DNA of 11,083 bases. It comes from Amoebophrya sp. AT5.2. Taxonomy: Eukaryota; Sar; Dinophyceae; Syndiniales; Amoebophryaceae. Both the position numbers and the translations under genes were made by a program. Under the pieces are notes generated by a model. It saw only the letters and a program-made list of their open reading frames with translations. It was not told the origin of the DNA and searched no databases. The stretch is taken from contig RXOD01006161.1 of NCBI GenBank assembly GCA_005223375.1, positions 1 through 11,083 on the forward strand, in the 5' to 3' direction. Below are positions 3,378-11,083 of the stretch, piece after piece (the first letter of the stretch is position 1; each line of letters begins with the position of its first letter).

Positions 3378-3556
3378 CTGCGGGCGTTCAAGTCCGTTAG
3401 CCTGCGGAAGATATGCCTGCCAGTGCCACTAGCACTACCTACTACTAGCTTCCAGATCCAGAATGTAGAGCTTACGCTTAGCACGCCAACATATGACTGA
3501 GGAAATCCAAGAAAAAAATAGCGCTGACTTTCGAGAAGACGAGCGAGCTGCAATAC
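3378..3556 (-). other. Candidate 179-nt GT-AG intron
   Basis: Donor CAAG|GTATTG at 3556-3555 and acceptor CCCGCAG at 3379-3378 on the minus strand. Joining them keeps frame and continues the same low-complexity style. AGGTA occurs at both edges in the same codon phase, so the junction is partly ambiguous, as expected if the intron arose by an insertion with target duplication. If retained, the upstream frame reads on to TAG at 3435. Confidence 0.5.
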
Positions 3557-4799
3557 CTTGCTGCTGCGGAACACCCCTCGAAATGTTCGCCAAAGATGTT
3601 GCGTTCGGTGGGGGACGCGACGCAGCCGCACCGGAAGCAGCGGTCTGCAAGACCGCAGCTGCGGAAGTCGAAGTCATAGGCTCGCCACCGCCAGAAGCTC
3701 CAGCGACCGAGAGCCAGGCAGCTGACGTTGATTTCGTACCTGTACCGGGAGCAGCGGGATGCAGATTCGCCCCCGCCCGCGCGGACGTCGAGCTCGAAGC
3801 AGCTGTAGCCTTGGCAAAACCTCCGTCTCCAGGACGCAGACGAGGGGCCGCCAGCGCTGATTGCATAGCCACGCCCGCGTCTGTCTCCTTCTCTTCCTGC
3901 TTTCCCGTGCTTTTGCCGAGAGCTGCGGGACGAGGCGCGGGGCGGGCCGATGTCATTGGGTTCGTAGCTGTACCGGCAGCAGAAGCGGGCTGAAAATGCG
4001 TCGCCGCGGTTGTTGAAGCTGTAGTCTTGCCGGGACCTGGCACTGCGTTCCCAGAGCGCAGAGGAGCAGGAGGGGCCGACGACTTCATAGCCACGCCCAG
4101 ATCTGCACTACCCTTTGCCTGGCTGCCCGTTGCGGAGTGTGCTGCGGCATCAGGATCAGCTTCAGCTTCAGCTTCAGCTTCAGCTTCAGCGGCCTTCTTC
4201 ACCTCATCAAGATACTCCAGCGCGTGCGTCAGCACTTCGAAAGTCGTGCCAGTCTTCTTGTAGTGTCCATGGTGCTTGGGCTTTCCGTCTCCTGCGCACT
4301 GTGGTCCAGTACCGAGCAGGAAACTAGCGACGTCGAAGTTTTGCCAGTTTGCCTTTGTTCTATCTTCCCGAATCTCCGCGACCACAACGTCGAAAGTGCT
4401 CTCCGGGAGAGCGGTCGGTCCATTTTTCCGGTCCTCTGCATTCGTCTGGACCGCTGCTCTCGCTGCCGCGCACTCGTCCGGTAACTGGTCGACCCACTTG
4501 CAGACGCAGTAACCGCACCCGAGCAACTTCCAGAAGAGATGCGGAATGCTGCGCTTTCCCCAATGCGTCAGAATCTGTTTTGCTGTCCGCAGCGGACACT
4601 TCGGCCCCCGCAACGCGACTGCGTGCACGCTCAGCTGGCGGAAAGGGATCGGAATCTTTTTCGGCGCCGTGGCTTCCTCATCCTGTGTGCCCGCTGTCTC
4701 CGGCCGCCCCAGACCCGCCGCAAGTTCCTCGCCCACTGCAATCTGTAGCCCGCTCCCCTTCTTTTCTGGGGCTGGTGAGAATAGGAATCCCCTCTTTTT
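3557..4799 (-). CDS. Large exon, hypothetical Ala/Ser/Thr-rich protein
   Basis: This is the longest coherent frame in the window. It is open from just after TAG at about 4828 and I start it at the CACACAG acceptor at 4800. Counting from the GTG at 4736, residues 40-180 are well mixed and look globular, with a cysteine-rich patch: C47 in C-P-L-R-T-A-K, then C74, C77 and C79 in G-C-G-Y-C-V-C-K-W, and C89. Residues 182-193 are (AE)6. From about 205 two imperfect units of roughly 60-70 residues follow, each opening with G-V-A-M-(K/Q)-S and continuing as Ala/Pro/Gly/Thr-rich sequence. There is no ATG at the 5' end, so at least one upstream exon is required; the best candidate is 5279 upward, joined in phase 0. 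No family recognised; the cysteine spacing could bind metal but that is a guess. Confidence 0.65.
4156..4190 (-). repeat. Hexanucleotide coding repeat, (Ala-Glu)n
   Basis: Nearly six perfect copies of the 6-bp unit TCAGCT on the plus strand. On the coding minus strand this is GCTGAA repeated, encoding alternating Ala-Glu. Perfect copies imply recent slippage, and the tract is likely length-polymorphic. Confidence 0.9.
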
Positions 4800-5278
4800 C
4801 TGTGTGGACGACGCAGCTAACTACCTAGGCCGCCCAGCTAATACTATACGCGCCAGCGCGCGCCCTTATGGGAGGGGGGTATGGGGACGGGGTATCGGGG
4901 CGGGGTATGGGAACGGGGTTGGGAACGGGGTATGGGAACGGGGCATGGGAACGGGGCATGGGAACGGGGCATGGGAACGGGGCATGGGAACAAGGTGTGG
5001 GGACGCACGGGGCATGGGAAAGGGGTTCGGGGAAGGGGTTCGGGAAAGAGGTTCCGGAAAGGGGTTCGGGAAAGGGGTTCGGGAAAGGGGTTCGGGAAAG
5101 GGGTTCGGGAAAGGGGTTCGGTATGGGGTACGGGGCATGGGGTATCAGGATGGGGCGTGGCGATGGTGTACGGAGAGCCACCGCCGAAGGGTGGAAGTTA
5201 GTAAGAACCAAGCCGCCCCTCGGTGGATCTAGAGGGAGGGAGAGGGGGACCAAGCGCGGGCGGCGCGATTTCATTTAC
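4800..5278 (-). other. Candidate 479-nt GT-AG intron holding a minisatellite
   Basis: Donor GAA|GTAAAT at 5278-5277 and acceptor CACACAG ending at 4800. Both sides are in phase 0, and the join reads P-P-A-R-E then K-K-R-G-F-L-F-S. Almost all of the intron is the 13-bp array, which lacks stops in several frames only because of its composition. A second possible acceptor, a 20-nt pyrimidine tract ending TCTAG, lies at 5250-5229. Confidence 0.45.
4867..5140 (+). repeat. 13-bp G-rich tandem array with two sequence families
   Basis: The left family is YATGGGAACGGGG, starting at 4880, 4893, 4906, 4919 (12 bp), 4931, 4944, 4957, 4970 and 4983. After a decayed stretch a hybrid unit CATGGGAAAGGGG occurs at 5013. 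The right family TTCGGGAAAGGGG follows at 5026, 5039, 5052, 5065, 5078, 5091, 5104 and 5117. The period of 13 is not a multiple of three, so every frame cycles and the open frames on both strands (Gly-rich on plus, Pro-rich on minus) are not evidence of coding. Each unit supplies a GGG and a GGGG run, so the plus strand has dense G-quadruplex potential. Confidence 0.95.
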
Positions 5279-5440
5279 TTCCCTCGCTGGCGGTTGGTAG
5301 CTAATCCGCCCATATTGTTCGCGATTGTGGTCCCGAATGGTCGCCCCAATTTTTTCGGGGCCGCGCTCCGCTGCTTCGAGTCCGCTCCTTCTTTTTTCTT
5401 TCGCTGCCACTCCGGCTGGCGCTGCGACTCGGCAAAGCAG
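5279..5440 (-). CDS. Candidate upstream exon, Lys/Glu/Arg-rich
   Basis: The minus-strand frame is open from after TAA at about 5448 to the donor GAA|GTAAAT at 5278. It reads A-A-K-E-K-R-R-S-G-L-E-A-A-E-R-G-P-E-K-I then A-T-I-R-D-H-N-R-E-Q-Y-G. There is no ATG. Several AG acceptors between 5428 and 5410 would all leave the same phase, and that phase also suits a possible donor in the preceding exon (GATAA|GTAGGC near 5606). The exon could therefore be the 5' part of the Ala/Ser/Thr-rich gene or a continuation of the DPF gene. The true 5' edge is undetermined. Confidence 0.4.
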
Positions 5441-5446
5441 TGCGGG

Positions 5447-5502
5447 TTAGAGGGGCAAAGCTGCGTACTCTCTAGGTGAGTAAAAGTTTTTTTTCAAAAT
5501 TT
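5447..5502 (+). repeat. Inverted copy of an exon-intron junction (arm 1)
   Basis: This 56-nt segment, read on plus, aligns without gaps to the minus strand of 5948-5893 at about 46 of 56 positions. Shared blocks include CAAAGCTGCGT and a T tract followed by CAAAATTT. The partner arm is the end of a coding exon plus the first 23 nt of its intron. This arm also keeps a donor-like AGGTGAGT at about 5474 and lies in the gap between the exons at 5567 and 5440. Confidence 0.8.
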
Positions 5503-5566
5503 CTGCGGCATCACAAACACAGCGTCACCATAAGCATCGCAAGCACCTGCGGTGGATTGGGTTGGG

Positions 5567-5832
5567 TCAGAAGTCGAGTTTGCTACTACTTGACTGATGC
5601 TTTTGCTTTGGCCTACTTATCTCCCCTGCTTGAATGCCCTCCCTGAATGGGGCAGGTGCGCAGATTTGGAGTTGCGAGCCAAAGCCCGCATACCTGTCGG
5701 GGATACGCACTTTCGATGGCCTGTCTGAGGGGGGTCTTCCATCCCCCTCAAAAAAAAGCGCGCAGATTTGGAATTGGAAGATAGCCGCTAGATACCAGGG
5801 CGGGAACGCATCCCGTAGACGACTCCTGATAG
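5567..5832 (-). CDS. Candidate exon of the DPF-motif gene
   Basis: Starting right after a CTAG acceptor at 5834-5833, the frame continues the upstream exon in phase (one base plus two) and reads I-R-S-R-L-R-D-A-F-P-P-W-Y-L-A-A then F-Q-F-Q-I-C-A-L-F-F. It ends with TGA at 5567 after a Ser run. Two nearly identical Q-(F/L)-Q-I-C-A segments occur 34 codons apart, from a 17-nt direct repeat. The TGA may be the true end or lie beyond a donor (GATAA|GTAGGC near 5606, or GACAG|GTATGC near 5695). A plus-strand frame with a real ATG (5634-5948, 104 codons) competes over the same bases, and third-position GC does not clearly separate the two. I prefer minus because of the splice-phase match. Confidence 0.4.
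5658..5776. repeat. 17-nt direct repeat pair 102 nt apart
   Basis: GCGCAGATTTGGARTTG occurs at 5658-5674 and 5760-5776 with one difference. The intervening sequence includes a stem (GAGGGGG at 5727-5733 pairing with CCCCCTC at 5743-5749) and an A8 run directly before the second copy. On the coding minus strand the spacing is 34 codons, so frame is kept. Confidence 0.8.
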
Positions 5833-5915
5833 CTAGTTCGAAGAACCACGAGGAGAGAACCAGCTCGCGGCGGCGCCGGTTGTCTGCTTTGAAAATTTTG
5901 AAAAAAAAACCTTAC
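5833..5915 (-). other. Candidate 83-nt GT-AG intron
   Basis: Donor GAAGTAG|GTAAGG at 5915-5914 is the strongest consensus donor among the gene-associated sites. The acceptor is a pyrimidine-rich stretch ending GAACTAG at 5833. Retention leads to a stop at 5833 itself. The first 23 nt of this intron are present again, inverted, at 5502-5480. Confidence 0.55.
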
Positions 5916-5948
5916 CTACTTCAAGAGGACGCAGCTTTGCCTCTCTAA
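5893..5948 (-). repeat. Inverted copy of an exon-intron junction (arm 2)
   Basis: This is the partner of the arm at 5447-5502. It spans the last 33 nt of the coding exon (L-R-E-A-K-L-R-P-L-E-V) and the first 23 nt of the following intron. In a minus-strand transcript the two arms could pair over about 50 bp with the exon at 5832-5567 in the loop. Confidence 0.8.
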
Positions 5949-6782
5949 GCGGGCAGTCGCCCGCGATATGCGCCGCCCGCGGGCAGCTGCAGGCAAGCGC
6001 CCGCACGAGCCCGCCCTGCTTGGGACGCGCGGCCGGGTCTGCCGAAATCACGACCGCCGTGTTAATCGACAAGCCTCGGAGGTAGTTGAAGCTCCACAGC
6101 GGGTTCTTGGGAAAAGTTGCGGGATGGAAGGTTGATTTTTTTGTTGTGTTTTGGCTTTGAGGCGCTGCCTCAACATCCGCATCGCCGAGAAGCATGCCGC
6201 TTACCGCGTCGTCGATATTGGTGTCGAACGGATCATCGGCCTCAGTCGCCGCGTCATCTGCTGGCGCCGCTTCGGCTTCGCCCGGAAGAGGGTCGAACGG
6301 ACCATTGGCATCAGTAAAGGGGTCACCAGTTCCAGCAAACGGCCCGCCGTCTTCATGCTGCGCCGACTGACTTGCTGCTTCCTGCTCGTTGTCGTGCGGC
6401 TGAGGATGGGCATCACCATCGCCGGCACGTCCGTCTTCGAAGTTCGCCGAAATTTTTCCGCGCCCATCTCCGGGAAGCGAGTGCGCCAGCTGTTCGGAAG
6501 TTGCTCCCTTTTTCAATGAGCCCCCGCCTGCGCATGATTTTTCTGTAGCGGCGGCGAGCGCGGCGGCCGAGGACGCAGAAGGAGAAGCCCGGGCCACATT
6601 TGGCTGCAGCTCTTCGTCGGACGCTTTTCTCGCTCCCTCCACGACGCGGACAGCGTAGGTGACGCAAGCCAGATCCTGGAGGCCATTGTCGATGATCCAC
6701 TTCCGCGCAAGTTCGGTGTCCCACTGCAAAAACCCCACGAAGAACTCCCGCCGCGAAGAATAGCTTCTTGGGCTGCCGTCGG
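5916..6782 (-). CDS. Exon of a DPF-motif protein, function unknown
   Basis: This is a 289-codon open stretch on the minus strand. It begins after a CAACAG acceptor at 6783; the frame itself opens after TAG at about 6833. The start reads R-E-F-F-V-G-F-L-Q-W-D-T-E-L-A-R-K-W, a mixed and apparently folded segment of about 60 residues. An Ala/Ser-rich linker follows, then an acidic disordered region with G-P-F and D-P-F tripeptides: G-D-P-F at about 6325-6316, G-P-F-D-P near 6300, D-D-P-F at 6237-6226. The final part is compact and holds A-C-S-C-P, then C-P-L-R-E-A-K. DPF motifs are known ligands of the AP-2 clathrin adaptor appendage in endocytic accessory proteins, but short motifs in disordered acidic sequence are weak evidence. 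The C-P-L-R-x-A-K segment recurs in the large exon at 4799-3557. Confidence 0.6.
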
Positions 6783-7213
6783 CTGTTGTGGGAACGTGTT
6801 TGGGTCGTCGAGTGGACGTCGATGAATCAAACTAGGAGTCGGTCGCCGTGGCCAACGACCATCCGACGAAGATGCCGACGCCAGAGCTCATTCCCACGCT
6901 CGATCTCGGCTTCGTGCCGGAGTACCAGCGTACCTGGAGCAAGACTGACCCCTAGACGAAGCGGCGAAAGGGGAGAAGCAGCTGCTTCGACATCGCGCTG
7001 GGACGCCCAGACGGCTTCGGCCCAGACTCCAAGAAGTGAAAGCGACAGCGAGGAACAAGGCACAGTGAGCTCAGCATGTTTATAGGCAACACTTCTACAG
7101 TAGATCACTCACTCTCACATCACCTACAGTAGGACTAGGAATCGAAAGAATTTTGTCTATTTAACTTAATTAGTTTACATCAACCAATACTACAAGAGAA
7201 GCAAAGCAAGCAC
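6783..7213 (-). other. Candidate 431-nt intron or unassigned gap
   Basis: A GT donor at 7213-7212 (ACAAAG|GTGCTT) and an AG at 6784-6783 (CACAACAG) join the flanking frames in phase. The in-phase GACCC shared by both flanks gives an alternative direct-repeat junction. The gap has an AT-rich part (about 7085-7190), two CTACAGTAG copies at 7095 and 7124, and a short plus-strand reading frame at 6836-6954. Confidence 0.35.
6836..6954 (+). CDS. Short plus-strand candidate frame
   Basis: Open between TAG at 6833 and TAG at 6955. From the ATG at 6872 it reads M-P-T-P-E-L-I-P-T-L-D-L-G-F-V-P-E-Y, then Q-R-T-W-S-K-T-D-P. About 23 of 27 codons end in G or C, better than the overlapping minus-strand frame, and the peptide looks protein-like. 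It is short, has no identifiable partner exon, and lies in a probable intron of the opposite-strand gene, so it may be a nested fragment or chance. Confidence 0.25.
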
Positions 7214-7569
7214 CTTTGTCGGGTCCCTGCCAGGGTCCCTGCCCGCGGGCGGTAGAGGTATCCATGCTCCAGCCGGGTGGTAGAGGTATCGCTAGCCACG
7301 CCCAGTCGATTGGGTCCGGGCTTCGGGTACGGGCATGCGGTAACCCGGGCCGCCGAACGGGTCGGCCACCGCCGTCGTTGTCGGGGTCGTAATCGCTGCT
7401 CTCCCCCGCGAACGGATCCTCGACGAGCTCACTCTCGCCGCCATCCTCGGACCCACCCATGGCCATGGGCCCAGCTCCTGCAGAACCGCCTCCCGACCCG
7501 TGGCGAATCGCCCCGCTCTCGCTCTGCGCTCCGGAATCAGCAGCGGCAGCAAAATTACAATCGTCGTCC
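7214..7569 (-). CDS. Exon of the DPF-motif gene, acidic and Gly-rich
   Basis: The frame starts directly at the edge of the inverted-repeat element at 7575-7903 and reads D-D-D-C-N-F-A-A-A-A-D-S-G-A-Q then G-S-G-G-G-S-A-G-A-G-P-M-A-M. It continues with E-L-V-E-D-P-F-A-G-E-S-S-D (DPF at 7418-7410), linking it in style to the exon at 6782-5916. Beyond about codon 65 the sequence becomes Arg/Pro-rich, while a second minus frame there reads V-A-D-P-F-G-G-P-G-Y, so a frameshift or small intron after D-N-D-G is possible. The frame reads on to TAA at 7170 if the donor at 7213 is not used. An ATG at 7466 exists, but continuity across the element suggests it is internal. Confidence 0.5.
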
Positions 7570-7574
7570 TTATC
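7570..7574 (+). repeat. Target-site duplication, left copy (TTATC)
   Basis: TTATC lies immediately outside the left terminal inverted repeat and is matched by TTATC at 7904-7908 on the other side. On the coding strand it reads GATAA. Confidence 0.85.
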
Positions 7575-7903
7575 TTAAAGGGGAGACAGACCCAGTCTGA
7601 TTATCAGTCTGCTTTTGAAATATTTTCACTATATATCCCTGTCCAACAATCTATCTGGACCAAACCACGAGCCGAATCACTTACACAGGGGCCGCAGCTC
7701 AGAAGTAAATGCCCGGGCGACGCTTTCGTCGCGGCTCGCGGCGGAACGGTCTGCGCGGAACCCCGGGAGGAGAAGGAAGGCGCTGCGCTGGTTTGGAAGA
7801 GAAGCGAAAACTCCACGCAGGGCCTTCTCCTGCGTCAGAAACTCCTAGAAGTAATAAATTAATGAGTGTCCCAGTAGACAGAAACGGTCTTTCTCCCCTT
7901 TAA
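7575..7903 (-). mobile_element. MITE-like or introner-like element, 329 bp
   Basis: The ends are inverted repeats of 18 bp with one mismatch: TTAAAGGGGAGACAGACC at 7575-7592, and the reverse complement of TTAAAGGGGAGAAAGACC at 7886-7903. The element is flanked by a perfect 5-bp direct repeat TTATC. It carries no convincing coding sequence. Open stretches (for example plus 7500-7862) run across its edges and show no transposase features. It is non-autonomous by size. It sits inside a minus-strand coding frame: to its right the exon runs into TAA made partly by the element's own TTAA end, and to its left the frame resumes. Removing the element plus one TTATC (334 nt) joins the two frames exactly. 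Strand is given as that of the host gene. This fits either a recent insertion or an intron created by the insertion. Confidence 0.85.
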
Positions 7904-8157
7904 TTATCGTCCATCTGCGGCAGCAGGTTCGTGCCATTCTTCGGCAGCTTCTGCGCAGCGGCAGGCGTAGCCGTAGCCCCGGCGGTGGCTCCAGGTCCTG
8001 ATAGTTCGTCCCAGATCGCTTTCGCTTCCTCCTCCACAGGCTGAAAATTGTCCAACTTCGCCTCCGGGTTCTTCACCAACCACGTCACCAGCTCGAGCTC
8101 CAGGGCTGTCGGCGCCGGGCAATCCTCTCGCGGTACGTGGATCGTTACAGGTTGGCA
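7904..8157 (-). CDS. Exon of the DPF-motif gene, hypothetical domain
   Basis: After TAG at 8160-8158 the minus frame reads C-Q-P-V-T-I-H-V-P-R-E-D-C-P-A-P-T-A-L, then E-L-V-T-W-L-V-K-N-P-E-A-K-L and an acidic helix-like stretch (V-E-E-E-A-K-A-I-W-D-E-L). An Ala/Thr-rich linker and L-P-Q-M-D-D follow. The balance of charged and hydrophobic residues makes this one of the most protein-like stretches here, but I do not recognise the family. The apparent stop at 7902-7900 is supplied by the inserted element. The right edge is uncertain: a CCAA shared in phase with the end of the exon at 9205 gives Q-H-Q-P-V-T, and a second option joins at an AG near 8125. Confidence 0.6.
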
Positions 8158-8821: not shown

Positions 8822-8909
8822 CGTCGATGGATCGGCCCGACCACAAGCCATCTGCTCGCGAATCGCGATCATTGAGAAGAAAGCCTATGGCCGAGCCGAT
8901 CCGTCGATG
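8822..8909 (+). repeat. Imperfect inverted repeat, about 22-bp arms
   Basis: The segment beginning GCGTCGATGGATCGGC near 8822 matches the reverse complement of the segment ending near 8909 (GGCCGAGCCGATCCGTCGA) at about 17 of 22 positions. The spacer of about 44 nt itself contains a TCGCGA-rich palindromic stretch. It could fold into an extended cruciform. Confidence 0.55.
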
Positions 8910-9700: not shown

Positions 9701-10531
9701 GCCAGAAGAGAACACGGAGCACGTGCTTACGCTCTGACGGAAGAGCCAACACATTTCCACGCAAATGCATTCCGTTGCGGCGGAGCGTGTGCCTGTGTTC
9801 TGCTGCAACGGAGCAAACATGTTCCCCAGCGGAACACGTACACGGAGCATGTGCTTACGATTACGCTCTGCTGCAACGGAGCAAACATGTCTCGCGTGCA
9901 CGTACATGCTCCCACGCGAATGCGTTCCGCTGCAGCGGAGCGCGTGCTTATGTTCTGCTGCAACGGAACAAACACGCGCCCACGCAAATACGTTCCGTCG
10001 CAGCGGAGCGCGTGCTTATCTATGTTCAGTTGCAGCGGAGCGATCATGGTTCCACGCAAATATGTTCCGTCGCAGCGGAGCGCGTGCTTCTTATGAACAT
10101 GTCTCGCGTACACTTGTGCACGAACATACTGCGACTGCCACGCAAACATGTTCCGTCGCAGCGGAACAGAGCACGTGCTTACGTTCTGCTGAAACGGAAC
10201 ACGTCTCGCGTGCGCGAACATGTTTCCACGCAAACGCATTCCGTTGCAGCGGAACATGTACACGGAGCACGTGCTTCTGCTCAGTTCCGTTGCAACCACC
10301 GGAACACGTCGCGCGTGCACGAATATGCTTCCCCGCAAACATGTTCCCTTCCGTTCGTTGCAAGCCGCGGAACATGTACACGGAACATGTGCGTATATTC
10401 TGCTGCAACGGAACACGTCTCGCGTGCACGAACATGCTTCAACATGTTCCGTCGCAGCGGCGCACGTCCTTACGTTTCGCGTGCACAAACATGCTTGCTG
10501 CCAGCCGGAGGCCTGCTGCCGGAGGCCTGCT
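9683..10531 (-). repeat. 18-bp in-frame direct repeats bounding the palindromic array
   Basis: AGCAGGCCTCCGGCAGCA (minus strand of 10531-10514) and AGCAGGCCGCCGGCAGCC (minus strand of 9700-9683) match at 16 of 18 positions and both encode S-R-P-P-A-A in the same frame. They are 831 nt apart. In that frame the interval contains TAA codons at 10093-10091 and 10018-10016, so the interval is not a continuous coding insertion. Further partial copies of the GC-rich repeat sit just inside the right end (10499-10520). Confidence 0.6.
9757..10496 (+). repeat. Array of near-palindromic 16-mers in longer units
   Basis: About 16 copies of a self-complementary motif close to TTCCGYTGCARCGGAA start at 9770, 9798, 9866, 9925, 9953, 9993, 10025, 10065, 10151, 10184, 10239, 10285, 10398 and 10447, with decayed versions near 9822 and 10343. 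They are nested in longer units that begin with CCACGCAAAY (9757, 9912, 9980, 10052, 10138, 10226, 10331) and are 68-155 bp long. Other short palindromes recur at fixed places in the unit: ACATGT, GCACGTGC, GTGCAC and GTAC. Open frames of over 200 codons exist on both strands because the motif contains no stop in most frames, so I do not call these genes. Confidence 0.9.
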
Positions 10532-10704: not shown

Positions 10705-11083
10705 TTAAGATGTAGCCCCTCGAACCGCCATGCCCCTGAGTCGCTTTATTTTCTTCGTATCCTGTTTCTGCTGCGCGAACGTCTGGACACCCAGCCACGC
10801 CCTCTCCAAGGACTGGCTCGCGTAGGCTGTTCGCGCGAGCCCGTTCTCTCGGGCGGCCAAGCCCATGAACCAGCGCCCGCGGTCTGTTACTGTGCCGTCC
10901 GCGAGCACGTCGAAGAAATTTATGGCCAGACCAGCTGCGACGCAAGCAGTCGCAAAGTAGAAGTAGAAAGACAAAGGCCGCAATCTTGTTCCAAAAGCCA
11001 ACCCAAAAGCCAATCCAATAGCCAATCCAAAAGCCAATCCAAAAGCCAATCCAAAAGCCAACCCAAAAGCCAATCCAAAAGCC
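10705..11083 (-). CDS. C-terminal part of a gene with (GLAF)n repeats, partial
   Basis: The frame is open from the window edge and ends with TAA at 10705. The first part is a four-residue repeat G-L-A-(F/I). Then come P-L-S-F-Y-F-Y-F-A-T-A-C-V-A-A-G-L-A and I-N-F-F-D-V-L-A-D-G-T-V-T, a likely membrane-spanning or buried hydrophobic segment followed by R-G-R-W-F-M-G-L-A-A-R-E-N-G. The C-terminus is basic (K-K-I-K-R-L-R-G-M-A-V-R-G). The non-repeat part is compositionally normal and very likely coding. The 5' end lies outside the window. No family recognised. Confidence 0.65.
   Translation of the reverse strand, partial: AFGLAFGLAFGLAFGLAFGLAIGLAFGLAFGTRLRPLSFYFYFATACVAAGLAINFFDVLADGTVTDRGRWFMGLAARENGLARTAYASQSLERAWLGVQTFAQQKQDTKKIKRLRGMAVRGATS
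10991..11083 (-). repeat. 12-bp tandem repeat encoding Gly-Leu-Ala-Phe
   Basis: About 7.75 copies of CCAAAAGCCAAY run to the window edge and probably beyond. Variation is confined to one third-position C/T and one unit with T for A (Phe to Ile). On the minus strand each unit encodes four residues, so changes in copy number keep the frame and lengthen a hydrophobic stretch. Confidence 0.95.

Follow-up and report, generated by a model that had tools for sequence, protein, structure and literature searches.

The window, a stretch of 11,083 nucleotides, contains a 329-bp element with terminal inverted repeats (TIRs), element A, which is very probably an Amoebophrya-type introner; its removal at the RNA level, as an intron of a minus-strand gene, is deduced from reading frames and homologous proteins. 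A candidate introner at this site had been proposed in an earlier note, and the proposal is now supported by several lines of evidence: (i) relatives of the end motif elsewhere in the genome, (ii) agreement of the flanking frames in 13 of 15 elements, (iii) protein homologues, and (iv) the empty site of a second element, B. From these we infer splicing. Introners are a documented route of bulk intron gain by genes. Amoebophrya introners with non-canonical boundaries are already known from A25 and A120; the novelty here is a further genome in this lineage.

Structure of element A

Element A occupies positions 7575..7903 and is read as an introner-type intron on the minus strand. Its inverted ends, TTAAAGGGGAGACAGACC and TTAAAGGGGAGAAAGACC, lie at 7575..7592 (plus strand) and 7886..7903 (minus strand) and match at 17 of 18 bases. 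Two copies of the target duplication TTATC (7570..7574 and 7904..7908) enclose the element. The 18-bp TIRs with one mismatch, the perfect duplication and the length of 329 bp reported in the earlier note were thus all confirmed. TIRs with a target duplication of fixed length, as in TIR transposons and MITEs, are present, and so are the features of Amoebophrya-type introners, namely an inverted repeat of 8-20 nt at both intron ends (18 bp in A, longer in B) and a direct repeat of 3-5 nt over the exon borders.

When the window was scanned for inverted ends combined with direct repeats, A scored 20, and the maximum over 200 shuffles was 17. The stricter seeding of that scan missed B, and a mismatch-tolerant scan scored B 24 and A again 20. 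Applied to 211 kb, made up of the window plus 20 further stretches of 10 kb each, the tolerant scan returned six candidates with a score of at least 18 versus none in five shuffles; two of the six are A and B, two lie at locus L006, and two are hairpins that were later dropped. Folded as RNA, element A has paired ends, as expected from their inverted orientation, and its stability exceeds that of all 100 shuffles (z -4.1). A 72-bp candidate at 8830-8901, located in a presumed intron, has direct repeats of 8 bp and inverted ends that are short and imperfect; it was rejected, its score lying within the shuffle range.

The host gene and its reading frame

Excision of 334 nt (element A and one copy of the duplication, hereafter exact removal) yields an open frame on the minus strand, 217 codons long, with about 84 codons before the joint and 132 after it, reading GAC GAT AAG GAC. 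The claim that the minus-strand frames rejoin as GAT AAG GAC after removal of 334 nt therefore stands. The coding flank upstream of A on the coding strand (7906..8157, minus strand; CQPVTIHV...LLPQMDD) has a provisional 5' exon boundary; the downstream flank (7173..7569, minus strand) opens with KDDDCNF, and its exon may end earlier, at a putative GT donor near 7220.

The length of the open frame was rejected as proof, because about 40% of 20,000 random removals keep a spanning frame of at least 200 codons, 50 or more of them on either side of the joint. An open frame by itself is weak evidence in such a GC-rich genome, and codon usage was therefore used instead. The model was built from four uninterrupted exons, with the tested locus left out and the strand chosen by score alone. 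Both flanks of A share the same best phase, with scores of 15.6 (left) and 13.4 (right) against at most 1.6 in the other phases. Along the coding strand, the frame meets a TAA that starts one base in from the 5' end of A; the final three bases of A form a further TAA, the last in-frame stop ahead of the downstream flank. With stops at both edges, production of a single protein would require the removal of almost all of the element.

A chance origin of the two flanking open frames, with no protein in common, would accord with the frequency of long frames among random removals (about 40%), and the upstream flank had no homologue when compared with the paralogues on contig C1123. This explanation is very unlikely, as codon usage favours a single phase on both sides of A and the C1123 paralogues match the downstream flank (57% over residues 163-213, other parts more weakly). 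A Pfam search of the window exons gave nothing above the curated cut-off, the window exon 3438-4820 (461 codons) had no match among 7,992 candidates scored in a protein database, and an Rfam search of the window returned nothing useful. Given these negative searches, the evidence for exact removal at A itself comes from frame and codon usage. Even with splicing of this class of elements, the gene in the window might be a pseudogene.

The family of the window gene (5278-7350) is characterized by a repeated unit, GW...GP... followed by FF..FL..D...A..WI, of which several tandem copies lie on C1123:3000-8500 (L048). Two of these units had no match in Pfam; the unit may resemble a methyl-DNA-binding domain.

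Element B and its empty site

Element B (5447..5948, minus strand) is a 502-bp TIR element of a second family and lies in a frame on the same strand as the gene of A. Its TIRs (5447..5502, plus strand; 5893..5948, minus strand) are 56 nt long and 82% complementary, and its target duplication is GCGGG (5442..5446 and 5949..5953). The upstream coding flank (5954..6768, minus strand) runs from RSYSSRREFFVGFLQ to CPRAAHIAGDC, and the downstream flank (5278..5441, minus strand) from PHCFAESQRQPEWQ to QRGK and a stop. Without B, CPRAAHIAGDC is followed directly by PHCFAESQRQPEWQ, and the resulting frame has 349 codons.

A relic paralogue from this gene family, disrupted by stops and frame shifts, was found at C864:7697-7993 (L047). 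It reads GGCGACTG CCCGC GCTG; a single CCCGC thus stands in place of the CCCGC, element and second CCCGC of the window, and this is the empty, pre-insertion site of B at the DNA level. The earlier note had suggested a search for an empty site; none was found for A, and the relic supplies one such site for B.

Relatives of B were found on contig C2636 (532 bp, duplication ACCCC, inverted ends aligned over 57 positions) and at the end of contig C894. The latter adjoins a SURF1 exon (Pfam PF02104, 4e-13), directly before an I-G-P-R motif that in a relative (P0001) lies inside an uninterrupted protein. The first part of SURF1 is on C864, and about 20 residues between the two parts were found on neither contig end.

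The ends of B contain donor-like GTAAGG/GTGAGT sequences, at which the frame of B stays open. Their use as a splice site is disfavoured: the relic has no insertion that would match it, and in the C2636 relative an in-frame TAG stands at +26, directly ahead of the donor-like GTGAGT.

Related elements across the genome

The 50.7-Mb genome was searched for further copies, as the earlier note had proposed. The whole of element A matches only itself, and its exact end, with up to two mismatches, occurs 10 times versus 8 for the reversed control, which is no excess; other copies of the ends emerged with a wider motif covering the ends of A, TTARRGGNNNRAAARAYY, which has 341 genome matches versus one in the control. 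Together with the relatives of B on two contigs, these matches are the several copies or relatives expected of an introner. A second pattern, with TATGG ends and built from L006 and L048, has 636 matches versus none in the control. Among its matches listed there are at least five facing pairs, of which C28, C496, C633 and C1123 were used and C1314 was left out. At the sampled loci, TTARRGG-type starts and complementary ends form 12 pairs, four of them with identical flanking 5-mers, compared with 0 of 72 at control offsets. Three of these four were already known, and the fourth (L027) lies in a nicotinate phosphoribosyltransferase (NAPRT) gene.

The scan of the sampled loci gave nine rows with a score of at least 17, of which six were kept (A, B, two at L006 and two at L033). 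The two elements at L006 (contig C200) lie within one frame of 1859 codons, and the two at L033 (C2636) within one frame of 422 codons that has a weak match to PAN_1 (0.0013, below the cut-off). The remaining three rows are hairpins (L005:6945-7022, L019:69-184 and L033:550-738), which were rejected as elements and excluded from all counts below. They have self-complementary 4-mers outside, and two score as non-coding and one is unscorable; these near-perfect long hairpins are probably a different kind of repeat. A C200 element that likewise has a self-complementary 4-mer outside (GCGC) was kept, as a matter of judgement, because its frames rejoin.

In total, 15 elements were examined: 11 elements, namely the six kept from the scan, the four used with TATGG ends and the one in NAPRT, and a blind set of four facing pairs of end motifs within 500 bp, chosen on motif alone among the matches listed for TTARRGGNNNRAAARAYY. 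Element lengths range from 178 to 532 bp. The target duplication is an exact 5-mer in 12 elements, a 5-mer with one mismatch in one, 4 bp in one and 3 bp in one.

Two further features of these families were observed. In the TATGG family (e.g. C28, C496, C633, C1123 and C200), the sequence GTAAGTGG lies inside the inverted ends; it is donor-like and is left unused by exact removal. A further family with ends TTARAGGGGTGAAARACC is represented at L026, L030 and L031, 78-88% alike over 88-150 bp; no partners of these ends were found among the sampled loci.

Agreement of flanking frames

Under exact removal, the codon-usage phases of the two flanks concur in 10 of the 11 elements, compared with 34% of 6,000 random cuts. 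The lone miss is B, for which two competing phases of the right flank differ by a small margin (1.1 vs 0.3). A variant of the test that also used the frames to choose the strand gave agreement in 10 of 10. In the blind set, in which two elements, C90 and C212, have low coding scores, three of four concur outright. The fourth, in a CFAP58 gene, has an imperfect TTCAA/CTCAA repeat, and counting this 5-mer gives one 228-codon frame. Agreement is thus 13/15 on strict terms and 14/15 with the CFAP58 repeat counted. The question raised in the earlier note, whether other copies of the ends lie at exon junctions, is addressed by these rejoining frames, several of them in conserved genes.

These data bear on the explanation that A is an ordinary, unspliced MITE which inserted recently and broke its gene. 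The structure of A is indeed that of a MITE, and the relic paralogue demonstrates that pseudogenes of this gene family occur. Nevertheless, we consider a broken gene highly improbable. Elements built like A interrupt frames for a MAP kinase (MAPK), a choline/ethanolamine phosphotransferase (CEPT), NAPRT, Vps53 and CFAP58, with both flanks open and in phase, and the TIRs of the 11 elements match at 14 to 17 of 18 bases, so that the elements are not all fresh.

Homologues at the joints

For this class of elements, further evidence on the exact boundaries comes from conserved genes carrying elements other than A. Homologue alignments are ungapped at the joint in all four conserved genes inspected (MAPK, CEPT, NAPRT and CFAP58), and protein length there therefore fits removal of the element with one repeat copy. 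The MAPK joint reads DYDLDAMIRS against DTDLHQIIRS, the nearest gap being about 15 residues upstream. The ungapped CEPT joint comes from a weak match (9e-5). NAPRT aligned to structure 4yub has an ungapped joint and a one-residue gap about 8 residues downstream. Among nine NAPRT relatives, the joint is ungapped in the eight that cover it, including Amoebophrya sp. A25; P0010 does not cover it, and in P0007 a single additional residue occurs some way upstream. The CFAP58 joint is likewise ungapped against its homologue. A fifth joint lies within the span of a Vps53_N Pfam match (5e-45); a comparison of Vps53 with PDB gave nothing useful. An introner is expected to be recognizable against homologues or an empty site, and such evidence is available for B and for the insertions in MAPK, CEPT, NAPRT and CFAP58.

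Predicted intron boundaries

None of the 15 elements has GT-AG boundaries under exact removal. For A, the compatible pairs are GA-AA, AT-AG, TA-GA, AA-AT, AT-TA and TT-AA. The earlier note had considered AT-AG possible and GT-AG not; the latter part holds, and AT-AG, as just one of six compatible pairs, has no special status. Among the 11 elements, the exact options include GA-AG in MAPK and GC-AG in C633.

An alternative is that the introners are removed by the ordinary spliceosome using GA-AG or GC-AG variants, with boundaries a few codons off exact removal. For A, a GA-AG intron that takes out 6 nt more than exact removal preserves the frame; GA-AG or GC-AG is among the exact options in two of the 11 elements; GC-AG and GA-AG introns have been reported in Symbiodiniaceae (PMC11453091); and canonical introns seem to occur in this genome too, judging by a putative GTGGGC donor after the first SURF1 exon. 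In nine other elements scanned, frame-keeping GT-AG pairs exist away from exact removal; for the two best listed per element, the net length change is 0 to 69 nt. The arguments against these inexact pairs come solely from homology and the direct repeats. Removal by a relaxed spliceosome is still unlikely. The joints in NAPRT and CEPT, which align to homologues without a gap, leave no GT-AG, GC-AG or GA-AG option, A has no frame-keeping GT-AG pair within the range scanned, and the C2636 relative of B has its in-frame TAG before the donor-like GTGAGT. Searches for U1 and U2 snRNAs were negative and, having no positive control, are uninformative on the absence of U1.

In ciliates, excision of internal eliminated sequences is exact and leaves one repeat copy. 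Removal of the elements from DNA in some cells, without any splicing, would leave the same product. We give this explanation the least weight of all, with hardly any chance of being correct: dinoflagellates are not known to have a separate germline and soma, and the assembly contains the full elements. Moreover, PMC7789003 describes comparable introns in A25 and A120 as identified by RNA-seq junctions in the assembled genome.

Host lineage and comparison with known introners

A search for the dinoflagellate spliced leader with up to two mismatches found 50 sites, 18 of them exact, and none for the reversed pattern. The closest named protein found, for NAPRT, is from Amoebophrya sp. A25 (75% identity). 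These sequence matches mark the host as a dinoflagellate related to Amoebophrya. The mean GC content of the 20 sampled stretches is 56.7%; a published table lists 55.9 for AT5.2, 51.2 for A120 and 47.8 for A25 (PMC11453091). The long open frames found here fit the standard code, unlike those of Amoebophrya ex Karlodinium veneficum (PMC12005148, PMC6394959).

In A25 and A120, over 60% of introns with RNA-seq support are reported as non-canonical, and 11% (A25) and 30% (A120) of these carry inverted repeats of 8-20 nt together with direct repeats at the borders, 3-5 nt long (Farhat et al. 2021, PMC7789003). The elements described here resemble the introner elements of that report in several respects: (i) inverted repeats, direct repeats at the borders and, on the assumption of exact removal here, no fixed splice dinucleotides, (ii) many singletons and, in the description given there, no transposase inside, and (iii) the end sequences (PMC7789003). 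The inverted repeats of A25 start with TTA and two purines, as do the ends of A and B and the TTARRGG ends in general, and those of A120 start with TAT, as does the second large family here (PMC7789003). There are differences as well. Both end types occur here in one genome. Mean lengths of non-canonical introns are 120 nt in A25 and 240 nt in A120 (PMC7789003), compared with elements of 178-532 bp here, and some inverted ends here exceed the 8-20 nt reported there, at 57 in C2636 and 56 in B. Furthermore, the A25 and A120 introners were defined by RNA-seq (PMC7789003), whereas those reported here are known from DNA, in a different genome whose NAPRT protein is only 75% identical to that of A25.

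Among other lineages, introners of Symbiodinium microadriaticum likewise have TIRs and insert into exons, with 4-bp target duplications (Gozashti et al. 2022, PMC9860276). That element is described as carrying its own 3' splice site and taking the 5' one from the duplication (PMC9860276), in contrast to the 0 of 15 elements here with GT-AG under exact removal. The MITE-type introners of Aureococcus share direct repeats, TIRs and a DNA-transposon-like nature with the present elements (Huff et al. 2016, via PMC7789003). Dinoflagellate introners are also treated by Roy et al. 2023 (as cited in PMC11453091). In the open-licence literature, we found no report of such introns in a further Amoebophrya genome.

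Proposed route of insertion and removal

A non-autonomous, MITE-like TIR DNA transposon would insert into an exon and generate a 5-bp target duplication. Element A would then leave the transcript as an intron, together with one copy of the duplication, so that the mRNA would equal the pre-insertion sequence. The boundaries would fall inside or at the direct repeat, without GT-AG, and the paired inverted ends may, by analogy with A25 and A120, form a hairpin that brings the two direct-repeat copies together. In this Amoebophrya-lineage case, homology in conserved genes allows the boundaries to be assigned to the duplication, and GT-AG does not fit; how cells recognise introns that have no common splice-site letters thereby becomes testable.

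A broader reading, which we put forward tentatively and at somewhat less than even chances, is that the feature recognised in such introns is their shape, with inverted ends paired and flanked by a direct repeat, rather than any splice-site letters. Removal would then take out exactly one repeat unit whatever its sequence, and the unrelated families with TTARRGG, TATGG and AGTTG ends would share this exit. If so, almost any insertion would be harmless at once, and such introns would not be confined to A25 and A120, contrary to the suggestion in a later paper that these elements are restricted to a subset of the genus (PMC12005148). For AT5, 99.98% of introns were predicted as GT-AG (PMC7789003); if the present genome is that strain, such introns were missed there.

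Other repeats and contig ends

The window also contains tracts of short tandem or dispersed repeats at 36-246, 4867-5121, 9757-10496 and 10990-11083, the last at the contig end. Their units are an 18/37-bp GATCAGGTAA, a 13-bp GGGAACGGGGCAT-type, a 70-bp class and a 12-bp TCCAAAAGCCAA.

Elements were also observed near the ends of other contigs. SURF1 is split over the contig ends C864:19046-19246 (L040) and C894:16-607 (L034), and C894 starts inside a B-type element. Several of the listed end-motif sites, with the motifs of both families, are a few hundred bases or less from a contig start. Thus, introners may be breaking the assembly.
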